NCBI GenBank assembly: GCA_017521605.1
Contig: JAFXCD010000033.1
Coordinates: forward strand, 1-64,000
DNA from: Lachnospiraceae bacterium
GTDB lineage: Bacteria; Bacillota; Clostridia; Lachnospirales; Lachnospiraceae
Direction of reading: 5' to 3'
Length of the DNA stretch: 64,000 bases
Below, in pieces: positions 51,408 through 61,606 of the stretch. The notes under the pieces were generated by a model. It worked only from the letters and a program-made list of their open reading frames with translations, ran no database searches and was not told where the DNA came from. Each line of letters opens with the position of its first letter. Position 1 is the stretch's first letter. The position numbers and the translations under genes were made by a program.

Positions 51408-51429
51408 TTGCTATACGAGGGGATAAAAT

Positions 51430-51500
51430 GTGAAAAATCATGGATTTTTCACTTATATTTTAGCAGTAACGCAAACGCTGTTTGCGTTATGCAGGGGGTG
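51430..51500 (+). promoter_or_regulatory. Two-hairpin element, copy 1
   Basis: Hairpin 1 pairs GTGAAAAATC (51430-51439) with GATTTTTCAC (51443-51452) around ATG. A 10-nt spacer follows. Hairpin 2 has GCA (51463-51465)/TGC (51490-51492) outside a bulged G, and TAACGCAAAC (51467-51476) with GTTTGCGTTA (51480-51489) around GCT. The sequence then runs into AGGGGG, which serves as ribosome site for the next gene. Copy 2 at 60236-60301 has the same lengths throughout. Confidence 0.8.
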
Positions 51501-51504
51501 TAAT

Positions 51505-53379
51505 ATGAGTAATCAGGGAATGAAAAAAGAATGTAAGTTTTGTGGGGCACGATTTGCACAGAGTGTGAAACTTTGCCCTAATTGTGGTAGTGTCCATATA
51601 AAGCTTGTAGCTCAAGAGGGTATGGAATATTTGGAAACTGTCAGTAGGGAAAGTGAAAATGCTGAGCAGGTAGGTTCTGAAAAACAGAAAACTAAGAAAA
51701 AGTGGAAAAAGGTTATTGTGATTCTGGTGTCAGTACTGGTTGGCGTTTTTGCGCTACTTATTGTGGTGTCTCAATTATTAATAAGATGGGCGGATAAGAT
51801 TCTTGAAAAGGATAAACTTTCTCTAAATGAACAAGTAGAACAGGTTCTTGAAGATAGTGATATGAGTGATGAAGAGTGGAAGGAAACAATGTTACCTTTA
51901 CTGGATGAACTCTATTCATTTCATATGGATGAAGAAATAGCTGAAGTTTTTGATGAGGCGCTGAGTGATGACAGACCCATTTCAGCGTGGGAGCATTTCC
52001 TCTATGCCTCTTGTCTTTCAGATTTTTATGCATTAGAGGAGATATGGGAATATGAGAAATCCGGTAAAAATTTTACTGAGGTTCATTACCAGGAGCTTTT
52101 GTACTATGGTTTAGAGATGAGAAGTTCTGAGGAAAATGAAGGACTCGCTACAGAAGAGAGGGAAAGGCTACAGTGGCGTATAACAAAAGTGTACAATGAT
52201 GTCACAACTCGTTTTGACTTGTCAGAAGAAGAGTGGAATGATTTATATGGAAAAGCTATTGAAGAGCATGGATTCGTAGATTATGAGCTAGTGAAGGAAT
52301 TCTTGAAAAATAGAGATAGTGTTTTCGAGAAGGATATCTCTGAGTATACAAAACCGATTGAGAACATAGAGGAAGCATTAAAGGCCACAGAAAGTCTCTA
52401 TGGTGTCGAGTGGCAGAAAGCAATGTTTCCAATATTAAATCAATTGTTTAAACAGAATGAGTATAAGACAATATATGATATTTATGTGGGTGTTAAATTA
52501 GAGGATACTTATAAGCCAATAGCTCATTGGGAACATTATTTGTATGCTCGAGCACTTTATGATATTTATGATATAGAAAAAGTATTGGAGATTGAAGCAT
52601 CAGGAGAACAGATAAAAGAATGGCAATATATTAATTTATTAATGGATTATTTTACCTTTGAAGACTTTGAAAATCGTACCAACCTTACAGAAGAAGAAAA
52701 AGAAAAATTAATGCCCTTGGTTATTAAGCTACGTGAAGATGCCATAAGTCGTTGGAATTTAAGCCAAGAGGAATGGGAAGAGCTACGTAATCGTGTTGTA
52801 TCAGAATATAATGTAATAAGTTATGAAAAAACGGAACGATTTGTAGAAGCTTGGATGGAGAAAAATGGTTACACCAATGATGTCATTACTATTGAAGAAG
52901 AGATTATTGATTCCATTGATTTGGATGACGAAACATGGAAAAAGAGGTTCATTCCTAAGTTAGATGAAATATATGAGAAGGGAGCAGATGAGGAACTTTA
53001 TAATGCTGTTATGACAGCACATTTGTATGGTCGTTCTAATGGTGTATATCAATGGCAGCATAAGGATTATGTTGATATGCTTTCGGAATATTATGACGCA
53101 GAACGTAAATGGGGCTATGAAAATGCTGGTACAGAATTGGATAAATATGACTATACACATTTGCTCTATGCATATTTACTATATGAACATTGGGAGACAA
53201 ATATGTCTTTGTCACAGGATGAGATGGAAAGACTAAAACCTTATCGAGATAAAATACTTCAAGATGGGGACACACGTTGGAATTTTACAGAGAATGAATG
53301 GAAGGAATTAATTTCCGATAATAGAAAAATCTACTATTATGTGGTTGCAGATTTTGTAGAACAATGGTTGGAAAACTAA
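51505..53379 (+). CDS. Zinc-ribbon membrane protein with three internal repeats, 624 aa
   Basis: The N-terminal zinc ribbon (CKFCG at about residue 10, CPNCG at about 28) precedes a Lys-rich stretch and one membrane helix (VIVILVSVLVGVFALLIVVSQLLI). The remainder is a long acidic helical domain made of three repeats of about 170 residues. Each has a W-x-H-F/Y-L-Y-A-x-x-L-x-D-x-Y core: AWEHFLYASCLSDFYALEEIWEYE, then HWEHYLYARALYDIYDIEKVLEIE, then WQHKDYVDMLSEYYDAERKWGYE. Repeats end in RFDLSEEEW, RWNLSQEEW and RWNFTENEW. The function is unknown. It sits inside the folate operon, between the HD gene and folP, behind the two-hairpin element. Start ATG 51505 uses AGGGGGTG. Confidence 0.8.
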   Translation: MSNQGMKKECKFCGARFAQSVKLCPNCGSVHIKLVAQEGMEYLETVSRESENAEQVGSEKQKTKKKWKKVIVILVSVLVGVFALLIVVSQLLIRWADKILEKDKLSLNEQVEQVLEDSDMSDEEWKETMLPLLDELYSFHMDEEIAEVFDEALSDDRPISAWEHFLYASCLSDFYALEEIWEYEKSGKNFTEVHYQELLYYGLEMRSSEENEGLATEERERLQWRITKVYNDVTTRFDLSEEEWNDLYGKAIEEHGFVDYELVKEFLKNRDSVFEKDISEYTKPIENIEEALKATESLYGVEWQKAMFPILNQLFKQNEYKTIYDIYVGVKLEDTYKPIAHWEHYLYARALYDIYDIEKVLEIEASGEQIKEWQYINLLMDYFTFEDFENRTNLTEEEKEKLMPLVIKLREDAISRWNLSQEEWEELRNRVVSEYNVISYEKTERFVEAWMEKNGYTNDVITIEEEIIDSIDLDDETWKKRFIPKLDEIYEKGADEELYNAVMTAHLYGRSNGVYQWQHKDYVDMLSEYYDAERKWGYENAGTELDKYDYTHLLYAYLLYEHWETNMSLSQDEMERLKPYRDKILQDGDTRWNFTENEWKELISDNRKIYYYVVADFVEQWLEN

Positions 53380-53411
53380 TAGAAGAATTGCGAATGCTTA
53401 GAGAGGAAACG

Positions 53412-54275
53412 ATGTTAAGTAGAGACAAAAGTACAATGAAAATCGGAAACAGAATCTTTGATGTGCAAAAGCATACTTATGTGATGGGTATCCTAAATGT
53501 AACTCCGGACTCTTTTTCAGATGGAGGCCAATGGCTGGAAAAGGATAAAGCCTTGTACCATGTAGAAGAGATGCTGGCTGAAGGTATGGATATCCTGGAT
53601 GTGGGCGGAGAATCTACCCGTCCCGGACATGTGGCCATTTCTGCAGAGGAAGAGATTAGTAGAGTGGTGCCTGTGATTGAAGCTATTAAAAGTCGGTTTG
53701 ATGTGCCAATCTCTCTAGATACTTATAAGGCAGAAGTGGCGAAGGCAGGCATCAAAGCAGGAGTGGATTTGATTAATGATATCTGGGGACTCAAAAAGGA
53801 TCCGGAGATGGCACAGGTGATTGCAGAAAGTGGCGTGGCATGTTGTCTCATGCACAACCGAAAGGAAGCCGACTATGTGGATTTACTGCGGGATATGGTG
53901 GCAGATTTGCAGGAAAGTTTGGAGTTAGCCTGTAAGGCAGGTATTTCTAACGATAAAATTATATTGGACCCTGGTATTGGTTTTGGGAAAACTTATGTGG
54001 ATAATTTACAGTTGCTGGGAGCATTGGATAGATTTCAACAGTTGGGTTATCCCTTGCTTTTAGGAACCAGTCGCAAATCTGTGATTGGTCTGACCTTGGA
54101 CCTGCCGGTTGAAGAAAGACTGGAAGGCACGTTGGTAACAACAGTTATGGCAGTGCTCAACGGATATGCTTTTGTCAGAGTACATGATATAAAAGAAAAT
54201 GTAAGAGCCATTCGCATGGCAGAAGCAATACGACAAGGAGGTATGAGCTTATATGGACGAAATCAGAATCGATAA
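53412..54275 (+). CDS. folP: Dihydropteroate synthase
   Basis: GILNVTPDSFSDGG at about residue 25, DVGGESTRPG and the later LDPGIGFGKT and LLLGTSRKS define FolP. It condenses p-aminobenzoate with hydroxymethyl-dihydropterin diphosphate and is the sulfonamide target. ATG 53412 has GAGAGG upstream. Two earlier in-frame ATGs (53364, 53394) are less well placed. Confidence 0.95.
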   Translation: MLSRDKSTMKIGNRIFDVQKHTYVMGILNVTPDSFSDGGQWLEKDKALYHVEEMLAEGMDILDVGGESTRPGHVAISAEEEISRVVPVIEAIKSRFDVPISLDTYKAEVAKAGIKAGVDLINDIWGLKKDPEMAQVIAESGVACCLMHNRKEADYVDLLRDMVADLQESLELACKAGISNDKIILDPGIGFGKTYVDNLQLLGALDRFQQLGYPLLLGTSRKSVIGLTLDLPVEERLEGTLVTTVMAVLNGYAFVRVHDIKENVRAIRMAEAIRQGGMSLYGRNQNR

Positions 54276-55068
54276 CCTGGAAGTATATGCCTATCATGGA
54301 GTATTTCCGGAGGAAAATGAAAAAGGACAGCCTTTCTTTGTGAATATGGTTCTTTATACAGATATCAGAAGGGCCGGGCAGGCCGATGAGCTGACCTTGT
54401 CCACCCATTATGGAGAGGTGTGCCATTTTGTGACCAATTGGATGCAAAAACATACCTGTAAACTGATTGAAACCGTGGCAGAGAATATTGCCAGAGAAGT
54501 ATTGTTAGAGTTTCCTTTGGTAGAAGCTTTGGATGTGGAAATTCGTAAGCCTCAGGCACCTATTGGACTTCCCTTTGAAAGTGTGTCTGTGAAGATACAT
54601 AGAGGTTGGCATAAAGTCTATGTGGCTATCGGTTCTAATATGGGAGAGAAGGAAAAGTATTTGCAGGAGGCCATACAAGGGTTGGCAGACCATGAACAGA
54701 TATTGATAATGCAAACCTCCGATTTGATTAGCACAGAGCCTTATGGTGGCGTGGAACAGGATAGTTTTTTAAATGGTATGGTAGAAATTAAGACATTACT
54801 TACTCCTCATGAACTTCTGGACTATCTTCATGAGCTGGAACAGAAGGCAGGACGTGAAAGAATAGTGCGCTGGGGTCCCCGAACCTTAGATTTGGATATT
54901 GTTTTTTACGACAAACTGATTTTTGAGGATGATGTGTTAATCCTTCCCCATGTGGATATGGAGAATAGGGACTTTGTGCTAAAACCTATGGTAGAGCTGA
55001 ATGCAAACTTCAGACACCCGGTTTTGCAAAAGACCATGAAACAGTTATTGGAAGCTTTGGGTGTGTAA
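54253..55068 (+). CDS. folBK: Bifunctional FolB-FolK: dihydroneopterin aldolase / HPPK
   Basis: Residues 1-118 are FolB (DNLEVYAYHGVFPEENEKGQPFFVN). Residues 119-271 are FolK (VYVAIGSNMGEKEKYLQEAI, then RWGPRTLDLDIVFYD). The fusion gives the two steps before FolP. It overlaps the end of folP by 23 bp and, at its 3' end, overlaps the minus-strand Gx-transporter gene by 24 bp. Confidence 0.94.
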   Translation: MDEIRIDNLEVYAYHGVFPEENEKGQPFFVNMVLYTDIRRAGQADELTLSTHYGEVCHFVTNWMQKHTCKLIETVAENIAREVLLEFPLVEALDVEIRKPQAPIGLPFESVSVKIHRGWHKVYVAIGSNMGEKEKYLQEAIQGLADHEQILIMQTSDLISTEPYGGVEQDSFLNGMVEIKTLLTPHELLDYLHELEQKAGRERIVRWGPRTLDLDIVFYDKLIFEDDVLILPHVDMENRDFVLKPMVELNANFRHPVLQKTMKQLLEALGV

Positions 55069-55563
55069 AAATATACCTAAGTATTTCTGGACAAAGTGAG
55101 CACACAAACCGATAAACAGACCGGTAACAACCGCGCTCAGGATAAAGAAGGGCAGATAGGTAAGCACGGCTAAAGATTTGGTTAAAATAAGAGCTACAAC
55201 TAATTGTCCCAGATTATGGAAAAGGGCTCCGAAAATACTGATTAAAAAGAGAAAATGTCCTTGTAAAATCCATAGAATCAAAGCCATGGCAAGTAGGCAG
55301 AATATACCGCCTGCCAGGCTGTAGAACAGACTGACAAACTGCCCAAATAAAAAGGTGGCAATTATAATACGTATAAGGAGTACTGGAAAAGCTTCTCTTA
55401 GAGAGAAGTTTTTCAATATTATCAGGGTTATGATATTGGCTAGTCCCAGCTTTATACCCGGAATGGGTACCAGAGTTGGCAATAAGCTTTCCACCCAGTA
55501 GAGGATTAGTGCCAGAGTGGTAAAGAAGGCAAGTATGGTTAGCTTTTTTGTAGAATATTTCAT
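55045..55563 (-). CDS. Gx transporter family protein (HepS/PF07456-like), 172 aa
   Basis: The N-terminal MKYSTKKLTILAFFTTLALIL, followed by the ECF-S-like PIPGIKLGLANIITLIIL stretch and five to six hydrophobic helices, matches PF07456. It was once named heptaprenyl diphosphate synthase component I but is now grouped with small transporter-like membrane proteins. ATG 55563 has AAGGAG upstream. It is next to a NusG_II protein and apbE and may be part of flavin-linked electron transfer. Confidence 0.82.
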   Translation of the reverse strand: MKYSTKKLTILAFFTTLALILYWVESLLPTLVPIPGIKLGLANIITLIILKNFSLREAFPVLLIRIIIATFLFGQFVSLFYSLAGGIFCLLAMALILWILQGHFLFLISIFGALFHNLGQLVVALILTKSLAVLTYLPFFILSAVVTGLFIGLCAHFVQKYLGIFLHTQSFQ

Positions 55564-55573
55564 AACAGTCTCC

Positions 55574-55969
55574 TTAATGACTAATTGCATCCGGTAGGTT
55601 TGGTGGAGAATTAATAGGTGTTAATTCAATCACCAGATGGTGGGGAAGGCAGGTAATGGGAAGCAGATTGTTGGTAATGGGACCTTGCTTCACACAAAGA
55701 AGGTCTGGACAATCTGCAGAGGAAATGCGGATAGTACCCTGTTCCACCCGGATTTCATTGTAATGGCCATTCGGTGTGGTAATGGTGAAGTTATATGAGG
55801 AAGTAACTTCAGAAAGTGAGAGGCTTTCATAAAGCTTTCCATCCACATAGATAAGAGCTGTATAAGAGCGGTTTTGTTTGGGATAGAATAAAAGGGTGAG
55901 AATGCTGAAAACACATAAAAGCGTGAGAATAGTAGATAAAAGTATAGCTTTTTTCGTTGTTTTTTTCAT
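55574..55969 (-). CDS. NusG domain II (DUF1312) membrane-anchored protein, 131 aa
   Basis: An N-terminal hydrophobic helix (AILLSTILTLLCVFSILTLLF) is followed by a beta-rich extracytoplasmic domain (YTALIYVDGKLYESLSLSEV, IRVEQGTIRISSADCPDLLCVKQGPIT) that matches the NusG_II family. The CPDLLC pair of cysteines may form a disulfide or a ligand site. It lies 10 bp before the Gx-transporter gene in one transcript, divergent from apbE. Confidence 0.82.
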   Translation of the reverse strand: MKKTTKKAILLSTILTLLCVFSILTLLFYPKQNRSYTALIYVDGKLYESLSLSEVTSSYNFTITTPNGHYNEIRVEQGTIRISSADCPDLLCVKQGPITNNLLPITCLPHHLVIELTPINSPPNLPDAISH

Positions 55970-56020
55970 ACTGCACCTCCTTTTTCATTTAAAGATAGTA
56001 TAGCAGAAAGGAGCAGGAAA

Positions 56021-57067
56021 ATGAAGAGTTGTATCAGAAAAAGCATAATGTTTATATGTTGCATAGTAGGTATTTCCTGTGTTCTTTCGGGTTGTGGCAG
56101 AAAAAGTATAAAAGTGACTGCGACCAATACAGCTATGGGTACGGTGGTACAGTATTCACTTTATGTGTCCGATGAAAAGAATGGAGAGGTCATCATTACA
56201 GAACTACAGGATGAACTGGAGCGATTGGAAAAGGAGTACTTGTCCTGGCGTATGGTAGAGTCTCAAGTGGCAAAGATAAACCAGCAGGCAGGTCAGTCGG
56301 AAGGAACAGCTGTAGATGAGGCACTATATGAATATTTGGAGCAGATTTGGCGTGTTTCCAAAGAAAGTGACGGGGCACTGGATGTGACAGTCGGCAATGT
56401 AACAGCTTTGTGGAATCTGGATGAGTGGTCCGGTCGTGAAAAGAACCAGTGGCAGAAATTTCAGGTTCCCGGCAAGGTGCAGATAGAGGCGTTACTAAAA
56501 AATACCGGCTTTGAAAAAGTAAAAATAGGGGAAGGAAAGATACAAATGCCACAAGACATGAGCCTGGATTTAGGTGCCGTAGGAAAAGGAATAGCCTGCG
56601 ACAGAATCGGAGATTATCTGAAGTCACAGAAAGGAATACAAGGTGCTGTGATTTCCGTGGGAGGCAGTGTGGTTACTTATGGTAGTAAGCCGGATGGAAG
56701 TGCCTGGAATGTGGCAATTATGCATCCAAGGGAAGAAGGTACATATTTGGGGACACTTTCCTTACAGGGGGAGTGGTATATAGCTACTTCCGGTGACTAT
56801 GAACGTTATGTGGAAAAGGAAGGAAAAAGATATCATCATATTATGAATCCCAAGACAGGCTATCCTGCAGATAGCGGTTTGTGTAGTGTAACTATATTAA
56901 GTGATAGTGGATTATTAAGTGATACTTTGTCTACTGCCTGCTTTGTGTTGGGGAAAGAGGATGGGCTGGAACTAGCCCAAAAAATGGAGGTAGAAGCATT
57001 ATTCGTGACTACGGAGCTGAAAATCCTTATGACGGATGGAATGAAAAAATATTTTGAGGAGAGTTAA
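56021..57067 (+). CDS. apbE: FAD:protein FMN transferase (ApbE), lipoprotein
   Basis: The signal VGISCVLSGC gives a lipobox. ApbE motifs follow: NTAMGTVVQYSLY, LDLGAVGKGIACDRI, and HHIMNPKTGYPADSGLCSVTI, then SDTLSTACFVLG. The enzyme attaches FMN covalently to Ser/Thr of extracytoplasmic redox proteins. No FMN-accepting target protein is in the window. It is divergent from the NusG_II/Gx-transporter pair and followed 2 bp later by a phosphoesterase gene. Confidence 0.94.
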   Translation: MKSCIRKSIMFICCIVGISCVLSGCGRKSIKVTATNTAMGTVVQYSLYVSDEKNGEVIITELQDELERLEKEYLSWRMVESQVAKINQQAGQSEGTAVDEALYEYLEQIWRVSKESDGALDVTVGNVTALWNLDEWSGREKNQWQKFQVPGKVQIEALLKNTGFEKVKIGEGKIQMPQDMSLDLGAVGKGIACDRIGDYLKSQKGIQGAVISVGGSVVTYGSKPDGSAWNVAIMHPREEGTYLGTLSLQGEWYIATSGDYERYVEKEGKRYHHIMNPKTGYPADSGLCSVTILSDSGLLSDTLSTACFVLGKEDGLELAQKMEVEALFVTTELKILMTDGMKKYFEES

Positions 57068-57069
57068 GA

Positions 57070-57564
57070 ATGGCTATATTTTTTATTGCAGATACACATT
57101 TTTCAGAAGAGAATATTATGAAGTACGAAAATAGACCATTTATGTCAATGGAGGTAATGAATGAAGAGTTGATTGCCAATTGGAACAGAATAGTTGGGGA
57201 TGAGGATATAGTCTATGTATTAGGGGATTTTGGTGCTTATGGACAGGAGAAGCAGATTTTAGACCGACTTAAGGGAACCAAATATTTAGTGAAAGGAAAT
57301 CATGATATTCAAAACAATGAATACTATAGACAGGCGGGATTTCAAGGGGTATATGACTACCCAATTATTTTAGAACAGTTTTGGATATTGTCCCATGAGC
57401 CTTTGTATGTAAATGAAAATATGCCCTATGCAAATTTATTCGGGCATGTTCATAATTCTCCCCTTTTTAAAGACTATAGCAGCCATCATTTTTGTGTGTC
57501 TGTAGAGAGAATTAACTATACACCTATTGAATTTGAAGAGATAAAAAGACAAATTATAGGATAA
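57070..57564 (+). CDS. Calcineurin-like metallophosphoesterase, 164 aa
   Basis: FIADTHFSEENIMKYENRPF, YVLGDFGAYG, VKGNHDIQN and FGHVHNSP give the metal ligands of a small calcineurin-type phosphoesterase. It is short for the superfamily and resembles YkuE-like or single-domain bacterial members. It is cytoplasmic. It sits 2 bp after apbE and is probably co-transcribed. The substrate is unknown. Confidence 0.88.
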   Translation: MAIFFIADTHFSEENIMKYENRPFMSMEVMNEELIANWNRIVGDEDIVYVLGDFGAYGQEKQILDRLKGTKYLVKGNHDIQNNEYYRQAGFQGVYDYPIILEQFWILSHEPLYVNENMPYANLFGHVHNSPLFKDYSSHHFCVSVERINYTPIEFEEIKRQIIG

Positions 57565-57656
57565 TATGAGTGTTGTTGTTGATTAATAAGATGATTTTTA
57601 GTAAGATAGTAGTTGAATAGTTAGTGGTTGATTTATGTTGTGAATGGGAGGAAAAC

Positions 57657-58001
57657 ATGGGAGAAAATACATTTTTGCATATAAATGAGGAAATTGTGGC
57701 TAAGGTGAGTGAAACTATGCCACCGGAAGAAGAAATGCAGGATCTGGCAGAGTTTTTTAAGGTGTTTGGTGATGCTACCAGATTGAAGATATTATATGTT
57801 TTAAAATGCTCAGAAATGTGCGTATATGATATTGCAAATATGGTGGGTATGAGCCAGTCAGCCATATCCCACCAATTACGGATTTTGAAACAAATGGATT
57901 TGGTAAAGAATCGTAGAGATGGAAAAACCATCTATTATTCCTTGGCAGATACGCATATTGTGACTATTCTAAGTCAGGGCTTGGACCACATTGAAGAATA
58001 G
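57657..58001 (+). CDS. ArsR/SmtB-family metal sensor (CzrA-like), 114 aa
   Basis: The winged-helix core FKVFGDATRLKILYVLKCSEMCVYDIANMVGMSQSAISHQLRILK is ArsR-type. The C-terminal helix has D-T-H, then H at +13 and E at +16 relative to that Asp, which matches the alpha-5 Zn(II) site of CzrA/SmtB (D, H, H, H/E). MCVYD also recalls the alpha-3 Cys site, although one Cys is absent. It is predicted to repress in the absence of zinc or cobalt. No efflux gene follows; the 3' end overlaps a minus-strand gene. ATG 57657 uses GGGAGG. Confidence 0.9.
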   Translation: MGENTFLHINEEIVAKVSETMPPEEEMQDLAEFFKVFGDATRLKILYVLKCSEMCVYDIANMVGMSQSAISHQLRILKQMDLVKNRRDGKTIYYSLADTHIVTILSQGLDHIEE

Positions 58002-58969
58002 GTGTCGGAGCCGATAGGGCTATGATACCAATTATCTTCACCAAATTCTTTAAAATACACATAATTTGAAGTCATATGTATGGCAGTGTAGTTGCCTTTT
58101 GCAATTACGGTAAGATCACTTCCGTTCAGCCTCATTCTTTTCAGAGCCGGTTCAGTTTGGGAGTTACTTTGGTAGTAAAGGTAGCCACTGCCTATATTAA
58201 AGCATTCTACACGGTCATGAGTCAGTACCTCGATGACCTCTTGGGTATAATCATATCTGCATAGTCGATAATCATTTTCCACGTCCAAATAATAGAAATA
58301 ATTTCCATCAAGTACCGGGTACCAGATATTACCTTCCCAGAAAACTGTAGAGACATTGTTTTCTGTGTTTAGAGAGTTTAAATAGTGGTTGGTCTGGGTG
58401 CCATTATAGTAAATTACACCATCCTTAGCACAAGATGGATTTACTGCATAGTCAGCTAAAATGGTCTTGTCAGACTGATCAGTATTCATGCGATAAAAGC
58501 ATAGGTTGTTACCGGCAGTGGTCAATAAATAGAGTGAATCATTCACCAATTGTGCATGAACAACCACATCACGGGTCATGTTTTTTACTTTTTCACCATT
58601 CAAATTACTTCTAAAGAAAGCATGTGATACACGGAGTTTATCCAGAGAGGTGTTTACGGGTTCCCTCATGAAATAATACAAGTAATCTCCACCGGCTAAA
58701 ATGTTGCAGATATTGCCATCATATACCTTTTTTACATCTGTTTCATCTATATTCATAGAGTATAAGCAGTTGTTATCAGCCGGATTGGAAAAATAAACCC
58801 GTCCTTCATGTTCACAGAATAATCCTCCATTGTTTAGATTACCGGCGGTGTTGCCGATGGTTCCATCAGGATTGGCAGGAATTGACTCTTCCTGATAGGA
58901 AAGAAGCGTTAAGGCTCCGGCTATGATTAATATTATGACAAATACAATAATAGGTTTCAGATTTTTCAT
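57974..58969 (-). CDS. DUF5050 protein, membrane-anchored, 331 aa
   Basis: A signal anchor (IIVFVIILIIAGALTLLSY) precedes a beta-propeller-like set of repeats with GDYLYYFM, NDSLYLLTTAGNNLCFYRMNTD, GVIYYNGT, GNYFYYLDVENDYRLCRY and GYLYYQSN. This is the DUF5050 pattern, and the domain would face outside. The 3' end overlaps the ArsR gene by 28 bp. Its promoter overlaps that of pheA. Confidence 0.85.
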   Translation of the reverse strand: MKNLKPIIVFVIILIIAGALTLLSYQEESIPANPDGTIGNTAGNLNNGGLFCEHEGRVYFSNPADNNCLYSMNIDETDVKKVYDGNICNILAGGDYLYYFMREPVNTSLDKLRVSHAFFRSNLNGEKVKNMTRDVVVHAQLVNDSLYLLTTAGNNLCFYRMNTDQSDKTILADYAVNPSCAKDGVIYYNGTQTNHYLNSLNTENNVSTVFWEGNIWYPVLDGNYFYYLDVENDYRLCRYDYTQEVIEVLTHDRVECFNIGSGYLYYQSNSQTEPALKRMRLNGSDLTVIAKGNYTAIHMTSNYVYFKEFGEDNWYHSPIGSDTYSSMWSKP

Positions 58970-59022
58970 GAATGTACCTCTTTTGTGAGTGTAGTTGATA
59001 GAAAAATGTTTATGCTATTCTT

Positions 59023-59051
59023 AGTATATCCTTTATTGGACTTGCTATCAA
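59023..59051 (-). promoter_or_regulatory. Sigma-A promoter of the DUF5050 gene
   Basis: On the minus strand TTGATA (59051-59046) and TATACT (59028-59023) are 17 bp apart. The -35 overlaps the pheA -35 by 2 bp. Confidence 0.75.
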
Positions 59052-59070
59052 GTGGGTTTTGGTATAAAAT
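59042..59070 (+). promoter_or_regulatory. Sigma-A promoter of pheA
   Basis: TTGCTA (59042-59047) and TAAAAT (59065-59070) are 17 bp apart, 33 bp before ATG 59104. It faces away from the DUF5050 promoter. Confidence 0.7.
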
Positions 59071-59103
59071 AATGGATTGAGAGTATATAGGGAGGATAGA
59101 CCT

Positions 59104-60228
59104 ATGGATTTATTGAATTTGAGAAATCAATTGGATGTGATAGATGCTGAAATTGTAGAGTTATATGAGAAACGTATGGACATCTGTAAGCAGGTGGCAG
59201 AGTATAAAATCAGTACCGGCAAAAAGGTTTTTGATAAGCAGAGAGAGATGGAAAAGCTGGCTACGGTAAAATCCATGACACATAATGATTTTAATGCTCA
59301 TGGTATACAGGAACTGTTTGAACAGATTATGTCCATGAGCCGTAAATTACAGTATCAGTTACTGACGGAAAATGGTAGTCTGGGGAAATTACCCTTTATC
59401 AGCGTGGAAGATTTGGAAACCGGCAAGGCCAGAGTAGTTTTTCAAGGGCTGGAGGGAGCTTATTCCCAAGCGGCTATGTTTCAATATTTTGGGGAGCATG
59501 TAAACAGCTTCCATGTAGATACCTTTCGGGATGCCATGGTGGCAATTGAGGAAGGTAGTGCTGATTTTGCAGTGCTTCCCATTGAGAATTCCACAGCAGG
59601 AATTGTAAATGAAATTTATGATTTGCTGGTGGAGTTTGAGAATTATATCGTAGGTGAACAAATAATTAAAATAGAGCATTGTGTGTTAGGGGTACCCGGC
59701 AGCAGGCTGGAGGATATTAAGACGGTGTATTCCCACCCCCAATCCTTGATGCAGAGTGCTAAATATTTGGAAACCAAAGATTGGCAGCAGATTAGTATGC
59801 AGAACAATGCATTCGCGGCCAAAAAGGTGGCAGAGGAGCAGAATAAGACCCAGGCAGCCATTGCAGGAGCACATGCAGCACCGCTTTATGGTTTGGAAGT
59901 ATTGGAGCAGGGGGTAAATCAGTCTGATACTAATTCTACCCGTTTTATAATTGTTACAAACCAAAAGATTTTTAAGAAGGACGCGGATAAAATAAGCATA
60001 TGCTTTGAAATACCACATAGGAGTGGTTCTCTGTATCATATGCTGTCCCATTTTATTTATAACAATTTAAGTATGACTAAAATTGAAAGCCGCCCTATAG
60101 AAGATCAGAACTGGGAGTATCGGTTCTTTATTGATTTTGAAGGAAATCTGGCAGATGGTGCGGTAAAGAATGCTCTTAGAGGACTTCGTGAGGAAGCTAA
60201 GAATTTAAGAATATTAGGAAATTATTAG
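59104..60228 (+). CDS. pheA: Chorismate mutase/prephenate dehydratase (P-protein)
   Basis: Residues 1-90 form the chorismate mutase domain (LNLRNQLDVIDAEIVELYEKRMDICKQVAEYK). Residues about 105-285 are the prephenate dehydratase (RVVFQGLEGAYSQAAMFQYFG, LPIENSTAGIVNEIYDLL, STRFIIVTNQ), and the C-terminus is an ACT domain that binds phenylalanine (SICFEIPHRSGSLYHML). ATG 59104 is 7 nt from GGGAGG; a TTG at 59077 is in-frame but lacks a site. It is the bifunctional form and leads to phenylalanine. Confidence 0.95.
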   Translation: MDLLNLRNQLDVIDAEIVELYEKRMDICKQVAEYKISTGKKVFDKQREMEKLATVKSMTHNDFNAHGIQELFEQIMSMSRKLQYQLLTENGSLGKLPFISVEDLETGKARVVFQGLEGAYSQAAMFQYFGEHVNSFHVDTFRDAMVAIEEGSADFAVLPIENSTAGIVNEIYDLLVEFENYIVGEQIIKIEHCVLGVPGSRLEDIKTVYSHPQSLMQSAKYLETKDWQQISMQNNAFAAKKVAEEQNKTQAAIAGAHAAPLYGLEVLEQGVNQSDTNSTRFIIVTNQKIFKKDADKISICFEIPHRSGSLYHMLSHFIYNNLSMTKIESRPIEDQNWEYRFFIDFEGNLADGAVKNALRGLREEAKNLRILGNY

Positions 60229-60235
60229 AAATACA

Positions 60236-60301
60236 GGTGAAAATCCGGGATTTTCACCTTCTATTTGAGCAGTATTGTAAGCATTGCTTGCGTTATGCAG
60301 G
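60236..60301 (+). promoter_or_regulatory. Two-hairpin element, copy 2
   Basis: Hairpin 1 pairs GGTGAAAATC (60236-60245) with GATTTTCACC (60249-60258) around CGG. A 10-nt spacer follows. Hairpin 2 is GCA (60269-60271), bulged G, then TATTGTAAGC (60273-60282) with GCTTGCGTTA (60286-60295) around ATT, then TGC. AGGGAG follows as ribosome site. Lengths match copy 1 exactly, the sequence from GCGTTATGCAGGG is identical, and stem changes are mostly compensated or G-T wobbles. Confidence 0.8.
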
Positions 60302-60310
60302 GAGATTAGT

Positions 60311-61606
60311 ATGAGAGAACAGGAATTAATCGTATACAGAGAATTTGAAGATGGTGATTTGCTCTATGATATGGTATGGCTGATGGAGCATTATCAGGAT
60401 GAGTACTACAATGAAGAAGATAAAGCTGCCCTTATGTATGATTGTATCCATAAACTGATTGAGTTGGCGGGAAGCTATGGATTTCATGGAAATCTTTGGC
60501 ATTGCTATCTGGCCAATCTACTGGTTAATAACGAGAACAGTTACAGCTGTGGTTGTGAAATACGTGGTACCATTGAAGGAAGTATTAATCTGGCAGCGTT
60601 ACATGATATTGGAATTTTTAAGGAGTTTTATGATTTTGATTTTGCGCCTATGATGGAAGCTCTTAATGTGGCTGAATGGGCAATTGTAGAGACTTATCAA
60701 AGCAGCAAGCAGGAGAGTAAGGTATACAATACCAGAATCTGTGCCCGTATCTGTGAACTGGCTGAGCAGTTTAAGGAAAATAAGACAGCAGAGGAAATGA
60801 AGGATACACTGACTATATTTTATAAAGAATACGGTGTAGGGAAGTATGGTTTACATAAATCTTTCCGTATCGTACATGATGAATCGGGAGTACGCATAGA
60901 GCCGATTTTAAATATTGCCCATGTATATATGGATGATTTGGTGGGCTATGATATCCCCAAAAAGAAATTGATAGATAATACAGAGGCATTTGTAGCAGGC
61001 AGAAAGGCTAATAACTGTTTACTGTTTGGCGATGCAGGTACAGGTAAATCCTCCAGTATCAAGGCCATAGCCAATGAATATTATGATAAAGGACTTCGAA
61101 TTATTGAAGTATATAAGCACCAGTTCCAGGATTTAAACGCTTGTATCAGCATGATTAAGAATCGGAACTACAAATTTATCATTTACATGGATGATTTAAG
61201 CTTTGAAGAATTTGAGATTGAATATAAGTATTTAAAAGCAGTAATTGAGGGTGGTCTGGAAAAGAAGCCGGCCAATGTGCTGATTTATGCTACTTCTAAC
61301 AGAAGACATCTGATACGTGAGAATTTCAGTGATAAAGAGGAAATTCGTCAGGATATGCATACCAGTGACACAGTGCAGGAGAAGTTATCTCTGGTGGCAC
61401 GTTTTGGTGTGACCATTTATTTCGGATCCCCCAATAAAAAAGAATTTCAGCATATTGTTACTGCTCTGGCAGAACGTCATGGGGTAACAATGGAACGGGA
61501 GAAGTTGTTGGCAGAAGCCAATAAATGGGAGCTGGCACATGGAGGCTTGTCAGGTAGAACGGCGCAGCAGTTTATTGACTATATTTTGGGTACAGAACTT
61601 GGATAA
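60311..61606 (+). CDS. DUF815 AAA-type ATPase, 431 aa
   Basis: The P-loop GDAGTGKSS, Walker B FIIYMDDLSFEEF and VLIYATSNRRHLI define the DUF815 group of AAA proteins. The N-terminal about 170 residues are helical and unlike most AAA proteins. The role is unknown; DUF815 is widespread in bacteria with no clear substrate. ATG 60311 is taken because AGGGAG is 8 nt upstream. It is preceded by a copy of the two-hairpin element and followed 38 bp later by ppx. Confidence 0.88.
   Translation: MREQELIVYREFEDGDLLYDMVWLMEHYQDEYYNEEDKAALMYDCIHKLIELAGSYGFHGNLWHCYLANLLVNNENSYSCGCEIRGTIEGSINLAALHDIGIFKEFYDFDFAPMMEALNVAEWAIVETYQSSKQESKVYNTRICARICELAEQFKENKTAEEMKDTLTIFYKEYGVGKYGLHKSFRIVHDESGVRIEPILNIAHVYMDDLVGYDIPKKKLIDNTEAFVAGRKANNCLLFGDAGTGKSSSIKAIANEYYDKGLRIIEVYKHQFQDLNACISMIKNRNYKFIIYMDDLSFEEFEIEYKYLKAVIEGGLEKKPANVLIYATSNRRHLIRENFSDKEEIRQDMHTSDTVQEKLSLVARFGVTIYFGSPNKKEFQHIVTALAERHGVTMEREKLLAEANKWELAHGGLSGRTAQQFIDYILGTELG

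Follow-up and report, generated by a model that had tools for sequence, protein, structure and literature searches.

Why should two unrelated genes share the same pair of hairpins directly before their start codons? The question is raised by a 64,000-nucleotide stretch of DNA from a Lachnospiraceae bacterium (assembly GCA_017521605.1, contig JAFXCD010000033.1, positions 1 to 64,000; here the window), in which the stretches at 51430 and 60236 have a common two-hairpin layout. We consider it likely that each is a copy of a non-autonomous mobile DNA element of about 75 nt that carries its own Shine-Dalgarno (SD) sequence, and not a regulatory RNA. The pair in the window is far from chance, and there are about 40 copies in the genome. 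Mobility of the element is well supported. A 4-nt target duplication of the form NNTA appears fairly well supported by the flanking sequences, and the anatomy suggests that each insertion would swap one ribosome site for another in a manner neutral for translation.

The shared layout directly before a start codon had been recognized in a preliminary description of this DNA, and is borne out by sequence and folding. Both copies consist of a 10-bp stem with a 3-nt loop, a 10-nt spacer, GCA-G, a second 10-bp stem with a 3-nt loop, and TGC, and both end in a purine-rich ribosome site followed by the start codon (51505; 60311). Predicted folding energies are -29.2 kcal/mol (z -5.03) for copy 1 (51430-51498) and -24.5 kcal/mol (z -2.83) for copy 2 (60236-60304). 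A pattern made from the two copies (hairpin 2 plus AGGG, up to 3 mismatches) matches just these 2 sites in the window, with a mean of 0.00 over 100 shuffles. The features are as follows.

51417-51422, + strand: GAGGGG, Shine-Dalgarno-like, upstream of copy 1 (sequence; similar in other copies of the same genome)
51424-51427, + strand: TAAA, upstream NNTA position of copy 1 (register from flank tests; by eye)
51430-51452, + strand: hairpin 1 of copy 1, GTGAAAAATC-ATG-GATTTTTCAC (sequence, folding, alignment)
51453-51462, + strand: linker of copy 1, 10 nt (sequence, alignment)
51463-51492, + strand: hairpin 2 of copy 1, GCA-G-TAACGCAAAC-GCT-GTTTGCGTTA-TGC (sequence, folding, pattern, covariation)
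51493-51498, + strand: AGGGGG, Shine-Dalgarno sequence at the 3' end of copy 1 (sequence, alignment)
51499-51502, + strand: TGTA, downstream NNTA of copy 1 (sequence, flank tests)
51505-53379, + strand: gene after copy 1, with zinc-ribbon-like CxxC motifs near the N-terminus (by eye); no Pfam family at 1e-6
60236-60258, + strand: hairpin 1 of copy 2, GGTGAAAATC-CGG-GATTTTCACC, with an 11th pair at 60235/60259 (sequence, folding)
60259-60268, + strand: linker of copy 2 (sequence)
60269-60298, + strand: hairpin 2 of copy 2, GCA-G-TATTGTAAGC-ATT-GCTTGCGTTA-TGC (sequence, folding, pattern)
60299-60304, + strand: AGGGAG, Shine-Dalgarno sequence at the 3' end of copy 2 (sequence)
60305-60308, + strand: ATTA, downstream NNTA position of copy 2 (sequence, flank tests)
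60311-61606, + strand: gene after copy 2, DUF815 (PF05673), E 4.1e-91 (family search)

The GAGGGG at 51417-51422 would be the ribosome site that served the downstream gene before copy 1 inserted. The preliminary description had stated that every length matches between the two copies. Both spacers are indeed 10 nt long, but this is partly coincidence: 24 of 28 aligned copies have 11 nt, and the two reach 10 nt by different routes, copy 1 through a 1-nt deletion (51453-51462) and copy 2 through a shift of hairpin 1 by one pair (60236-60258). That shift, in which an A-T pair is lost and a G-C pair gained outside, also accounts for the T-A to G-C change in hairpin 1 that had been taken for compensatory. 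The wobble pairs and the single lost pair that had been reported are present in hairpin 2 of copy 2 (two wobble pairs, one T-T mismatch).

Across copies the element comprises an AT-rich 5' hairpin and, after a T-rich linker whose usual length is 11 nt, a second hairpin that has a G bulge and is closed by GCA...TGC. The 3' end resembles ANGGGG, which is an SD sequence. The two hairpins differ in sequence and, by alignment, are not inverted copies of each other. Inspection by eye found no terminal inverted repeats, the ends GTGTGAAAAA... and ...TATGCATGGGG not being inverted copies, and a foot tetranucleotide, GCAG, at hairpin 2 with none at hairpin 1. Of the 28 aligned copies, 15 have AAA as the loop of hairpin 1 and two have TTT (L005, L016; sites are labeled L and genomes G), as if the palindrome had been inverted.

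Within the bacterium's own genome (G000) a covariance model returned 40 matches at E<=0.01. The model was built from 28 of the genome's own copies, which match by construction; the other 12 (L052, L056, L058, L074-L082) lie outside its alignment. A blastn search with E<=10 produced 43 rows, several being short or antisense, and added two shortened copies (L029, L083), for 42 sites examined. All 25 hairpin-1 palindromes of the own genome (pattern, up to 1 mismatch) lie inside element copies. An open reading frame (ORF) of at least 40 codons starts 8-14 nt past hairpin 2 at 29 of the 42 by script (offset 12 in 24, 11 in 5), as compared to 5.7% of random non-ORF positions and 10.4% of random positions of any kind at the same loci. 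With four sites that the script mis-anchored or put at 15 nt (L029, L077, L080, L083; by eye), 33 of 42 stand before a gene start. At 33 of 42 sites an ORF on the same strand has its stop codon no more than 80 nt upstream, as expected inside operons (script; a count without control). The genes that follow are unrelated, as had been said of the zinc-ribbon-like protein and DUF815. Among 20 downstream proteins scanned, 18 have a family and no single family recurs throughout: DXP reductoisomerase, SRP54-type GTPase, aminotransferase class V, histidine kinase, FlgK, UDP-galactopyranose mutase, RuvX, DUF815, RlmN, DnaB, HD domain, an alanyl-tRNA-synthetase-like protein, QueH, IreB, MBOAT, an alanine-racemase-N protein, an HhH-GPD protein, and GlgB. 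No family was found for the products of 51505-53379 and of the gene at L019. The neighboring genes IreB and RuvX (L024, L027; G000 contig 79) each have a copy upstream, about 400 nt apart.

Comparison with relatives bears on mobility. The closest among 121 genomes, G350, is 95% identical in DUF815. Fifteen of the 42 own sites have blast matches on both sides in G350, and 13 of these were aligned (L009 and L079 left out). Seven of the 13 are clean empty sites (L007, L017, L019, L020, L021, L052, L081), two are occupied in both genomes (L076, L078), and four are ambiguous (L013, L023, L056, L077), although L056 looks empty by eye. The start of DUF815 in G350 carries no element. DUF815 was matched in 114 genomes; in the 30 best loci, which include the own one, none of the 29 others has the own copy. 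By eye, hairpin-2-like sequence stands at the DUF815 start in two element-bearing genomes, G313 (L139) and G379 (L142), perhaps as independent insertions. A GGGG-type SD is absent from the empty L019 and L052 sites and present when they are filled, so that the 3' GGGG seems to be part of the element. The L017 and L052 insertions do not stand directly before a start codon, and the sequence around them resembles TGTA or GTATA; for this reason the target is perhaps a short sequence and not the start codon itself, one that ribosome sites may simply happen to offer. Tandem head-to-tail arrays, in which one copy follows the GGGG-NNTA end of another (L106, L268, L285, L288, L305), fit such a target. 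The genes past these arrays look ordinary by eye, no family search of them having been made.

The flanks point the same way. The 6-nt sequences on either side of own copies share 3.50 bases as compared to 2.72 when permuted (0 of 3000 permutations; n=22), an excess confined to one register just outside the element and absent from neighboring registers and from the SD part. Per position it is clearest at U-6 (p 0.006) and U-5 (p 0.010; n=21). The 6-nt test used 50 rows, including one antisense reading of L012, and the per-position test the 49 without it. In the NNTA register the tetranucleotides are identical at all four bases in 8 of 25 own copies (p 0.005; p 0.001 within hairpin-2 subfamilies) and are of four kinds (TGTA three times, ATTA three times, AGTA, and TATA). 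Allowing a shift of one base adds GTTA, for 9 of 25 (p 0.002, and p 0.002 within subfamilies). The table covers 25 of the 42 own copies, those with hairpin 1 lost or register uncertain being left out (L009, L018, L022, L025, L029, L056, L058, L074-L083). A broader measure over longer stretches gives p 0.011 for own copies and p 0.006 for other genomes (n=75). A dispersed selfish repeat had been named in the preliminary description as an alternative; the empty sites in a close relative, the flanking NNTA repeats, the patchy copy numbers, and the lack of a link to any gene family now favor it.

Several observations weigh against a mobile element of this kind. The G350 sequence compared amounts to only 1.13 Mb of about 2.9 Mb. 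Four of the empty sites (L007, L019, L020, L021) are too diverged to show the NNTA before insertion, and the empty L019 site has GGGACAG further upstream. The NNTA register was picked after the data had been seen, and the p values for the narrowed register follow that choice. The remaining 17 of the 25 tabulated copies share one to three of the four bases, as if decayed, and the excess in other genomes is weak (2.86 versus 2.67, p 0.09, n=28). The window copies do not show a clean repeat by eye: TAAA and TGTA around copy 1 agree at two of four bases, as do ATAC and ATTA around copy 2, which is outside the 25-copy table. Nine of the 42 own copies do not stand directly before a gene start (L006, a start with a short ORF; L014, L017, L023, L026, L027, L052, L078, L079). 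Finally, the searches described below found neither an autonomous partner nor a mobilizing enzyme.

A rival reading is a cis-acting regulatory RNA, in which hairpins in the mRNA leader control initiation or mRNA stability for a set of downstream genes, and translational or RNA-stability control had been proposed at the outset. In its favor, the copies lie on the coding strand immediately ahead of start codons, the two in the window have better predicted folds than their shuffles, and the L076 and L078 copies are common to the own genome and G350. Hairpin 2 covaries: in the 28-copy alignment six pairs are changed on both sides, a pair count reached in 29 of 500 shuffles, and there are 36 two-sided changed cells as compared to 13.3 in shuffles, a number reached by none of 500. 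Hairpin 1 shows one-sided changes only in that alignment, where L009, L018, L022, and L025 are partly out of register; outside it, GTG..CAC has become TTG..CAA in L052 and ATG..CAT in G363. The preliminary description had looked to many matches upstream of start codons with compensatory changes for support, and such matches exist, but they do not separate a mobile element from a regulatory RNA. Covariation of hairpin 2 is expected also if the palindrome is needed as DNA.

RNA under selection should tolerate G.T and avoid A.C. Mismatches were counted over 108 distinct sequences of hairpin 2, from the own genome and others, that retain at least 7 Watson-Crick pairs; 26 are G.T, 23 A.C, and 9 of other kinds. 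Because the mismatches are strand-symmetric, selection at the RNA level is unsupported; the near equality suggests that copies decay irrespective of strand and that pairing may be needed in the source elements as DNA. Nor does the element appear to shield or sequester the ribosome site. The predicted unpaired fraction of the SD is 0.40 with the element, 0.40 with it removed in silico (n=19 copies), and 0.43 at 107 other ribosome sites of the window (p 0.74 for copies versus other sites), and both shielding and sequestration were rejected as explanations. The downstream genes are unrelated, and the element is missing from most compared orthologues, so that it is not conserved at orthologous genes. 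It has no Rfam family: no match to the element reached the gathering threshold, and the five matches at E<=5, all to eukaryotic snoRNA or microRNA families and below gathering scores, lie elsewhere than at the element. The earlier statement that it belongs to no named RNA family thus holds for Rfam, and a regulatory RNA now seems improbable.

Two further roles for the leader were considered. With its 3-4 G-C pairs, hairpin 1 has a terminator-like score on either strand (2 sites as compared to 0.1 in shuffles, for each window copy). An intrinsic terminator nevertheless seems doubtful: most copies follow an ORF on the same strand, and ending transcription there would be costly. A short leader peptide that begins at the GTG or TTG of hairpin 1, its translation coupled to the start of the gene, would be in keeping with two features of several own copies, an SD-like sequence before the GTG and a stop overlapping the ATG (TAATATG). 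However, codons on both sides are altered by the compensatory changes in hairpin 2, and indels in linker and stem shift the frame (L001 is in frame into the gene; L009, L024, and L027 differ in length). With neither frame nor codons kept in the copies compared, this reading was rejected and is the least credible of those weighed here.

How might a mobile element come to lie so close to start codons? Its anatomy suggests that an enzyme supplied in trans would recognize the hairpins and that insertion would occur at NNTA after purine-rich DNA, typically in the spacer between the SD of a gene and its ATG. The old SD would be left upstream and the element's own SD would take over at the right distance. 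The downstream gene would still be translated, and insertion would be tolerated even inside housekeeping operons. Copies would then decay, with hairpin 1 losable and the 3' part kept, now serving as the ribosome site. Mobile elements usually harm adjoining genes or avoid genes; landing between ribosome site and start codon with a replacement site would be a neat solution for gene-dense operons, and carrying its own ribosome site may be how the element spreads among important genes without silencing them. Translation signals would be supplied ready-made by the element, and its presence could account for start-codon hairpins of Lachnospiraceae that might otherwise be mistaken for regulatory RNAs. 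A bolder proposal, offered tentatively and with some doubt, is that such mobile elements form a family with ribosome-binding sites as its targets, the enzyme recognizing SD-like DNA plus NNTA and each insertion swapping the ribosome site of a gene for a standard one. If true, this would mean nearly cost-free spread through housekeeping operons, genome-wide rewiring of initiation signals, and a mover of a kind not yet linked to such repeats.

Candidate movers were sought in an element-rich set (G000, G350, G377, G379, G313, G323, G363, G317, G102, G167, G211, G239, the last four chosen from the hairpin-2 pattern) and an element-poor set (12 of 17 members of the genus without model matches); several of the genomes are only 60-90% complete. 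A single-stranded DNA element like a REPIN (a doublet of repetitive extragenic palindromic, or REP, sequences) or an IS200/IS605 derivative, with a Y1 (HUH) transposase that many hosts would since have lost, would agree with the asymmetric subterminal hairpins, the 4-nt GCAG at the foot of hairpin 2, the tandem head-to-tail arrays, and the strand-symmetric palindromes. Y1 transposase (Y1_Tnp, PF01797) is absent from G000, a soft absence given incomplete genomes, and shows no association with the element: it occurs in 4 of the 12 genomes of the rich set and 5 of the 12 of the poor set, and G313 and G363, with the most matches, are without it. It is also absent from 9 of 10 genomes in a first survey and from five genomes with few matches (G032, G017, G021, G027, G025). 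IS200/IS605 elements are not known to make a target duplication, and matching NNTA flanks are not expected of them. Such an origin is unlikely, if less so than a regulatory RNA.

An RNA-mediated retroelement resembling short interspersed nuclear elements (SINEs) and moved by reverse transcriptase has in its favor the short flanking repeats without terminal inverted repeats, and the copies that have lost the 5' hairpin and kept the 3' end (L029, L076, L080, L082, L083). No copy with hairpin 1 alone was found in the own genome. Hairpin 1 can, however, be lost after insertion: the own L078 copy lacks it and the G350 copy still has it, which undermines 5' truncation as a sign of retrotransposition. 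In addition, hairpin-2 mismatches show no RNA-strand bias, and reverse transcriptase (RVT_1) occurs in 6 of 12 element-rich as compared to 9 of 12 element-poor genomes. We regard this origin as very unlikely. Both Y1 transposase and reverse transcriptase were rejected as the mover for want of association with element-rich genomes. One copy (L075:1546-1578, minus strand) has, in place of hairpin 1, an unrelated hairpin that looks stronger, GAAAGGCATAC...GTATGCCTTTC. Of 174 hairpin-2 matches, repeated copies included, 132 lack an adjacent hairpin 1 by a strict finder that misses many true ones. A search upstream of those 132 for an autonomous version bounded by both hairpins, up to 4.5 kb where sequence was available, was a weak test and gave one chance-like match and no such version.

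The SD-carrying double-hairpin element is best placed among the small mobile palindromic repeats, although the classes already described suit it poorly. Rickettsia palindromic elements are likewise small and mobile, and their placement preserves gene expression; their insertions fall within reading frames, whereas the present element stands before them. REPINs are paired REP hairpins moved by Y1 transposases of the RAYT (REP-associated tyrosine transposase) type. Like them the element is small, non-autonomous, and built of two hairpins, with many extragenic copies per genome, but its hairpins are unrelated in sequence and not inverted copies of one REP, the own genome has no Y1 transposase (with the reservation on completeness made above), and it prefers a place before start codons, with an SD. 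REPs have a GTAG-type foot motif in the excerpted text of PMC2817692, and the element has GCAG. Bacterial miniature inverted-repeat transposable elements (MITEs), such as RUP and YPAL/RU-2, are under 200 bp, non-coding, and multicopy, with target-site duplication and TA in the target, as the excerpted review describes (PMC2229807). The element is likewise non-coding, under 200 bp, multicopy, and mobile; its duplication, NNTA, is statistical in own copies and weak in other genomes. It differs from MITEs as there described in lacking terminal inverted repeats, in ending in an SD, and in concentrating its insertions in the spacer between SD and start; nowhere does that review (PMC2229807) use the terms Shine-Dalgarno, ribosome binding, or start codon. 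Mitochondrial double-hairpin or repetitive hairpin-forming elements are also dispersed paired hairpins scattered among relatives, but are organellar and, in the excerpted account, have no tie to start codons and no SD (PMC2800124). The TAACTGA repeats of Beggiatoaceae are intergenic and oriented towards start codons a few nt away, and regulation has been proposed for them; they are heptanucleotide direct repeats without a double hairpin and mostly without an SD, which about 10% of those regions have (PMC4679880). No paper on the element was among the open-licence PubMed Central matches listed, from which its being unpublished does not follow.

The covariance model matched in 7 of 61 genomes, own included; the single match in G001 is G+C-rich and probably due to chance. 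Nine of 26 further members of the genus have matches (57 in G313, 50 in G363, 46 in G323, then 13, 13, 9, 9, 1, and 1) and 17 have none. Such patchy expansions (0-57 matches per genome within one genus) make the mover testable by genome comparison. Of 250 family members, 5, the own genome among them, contain a strict hairpin-2 pattern, with 0 for a reversed-pattern control. A pattern scan of genome contigs matched at least 119 stretches, of which 80 were analyzed; among the matches listed are Parablautia, Acetatifactor, Anaerocolumna, Robinsoniella, and Lachnoclostridium, all presumably Lachnospiraceae, along with 'Clostridium sp. KNHs205' and other Lachnospiraceae. In many of these copies hairpin 1 differs (GTTTGAAA...TTTCAAAC, among others), and SD and spacing are mostly kept, hairpin 2 being demanded by the pattern. 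An ORF of at least 60 codons starts 5-21 nt downstream in 37 of 78 usable copies as compared to 18.8% of random positions of any kind; by eye, a number of copies without a near ORF run into another hairpin. IMG/VR (one exact pattern), PLSDB, and INPHARED gave no match, and a phage or plasmid origin was rejected on that basis. A second two-hairpin type, with another hairpin 1, TTGATT(T/G)GTATG, a G+C-rich hairpin, and an SD-like end, alternates with the present one in arrays by eye (L279:1000-1400; L174; L180), and a wider superfamily of SD-ended hairpin pairs is possible.

Minor observations concern annotation. The 3' end of the element often reads ATGGGGTGTAATATG (L018 and other own copies), which places another ATG in frame 12 nt ahead of the gene start, and automatic annotation may start such genes too early. 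In the window, the mechanically called GTG ORF 51430-53379 starts too early. Elsewhere in the window an Rfam search found group II intron signatures within 136-821 (RF02005 at 136-359, RF00029 at 748-821).

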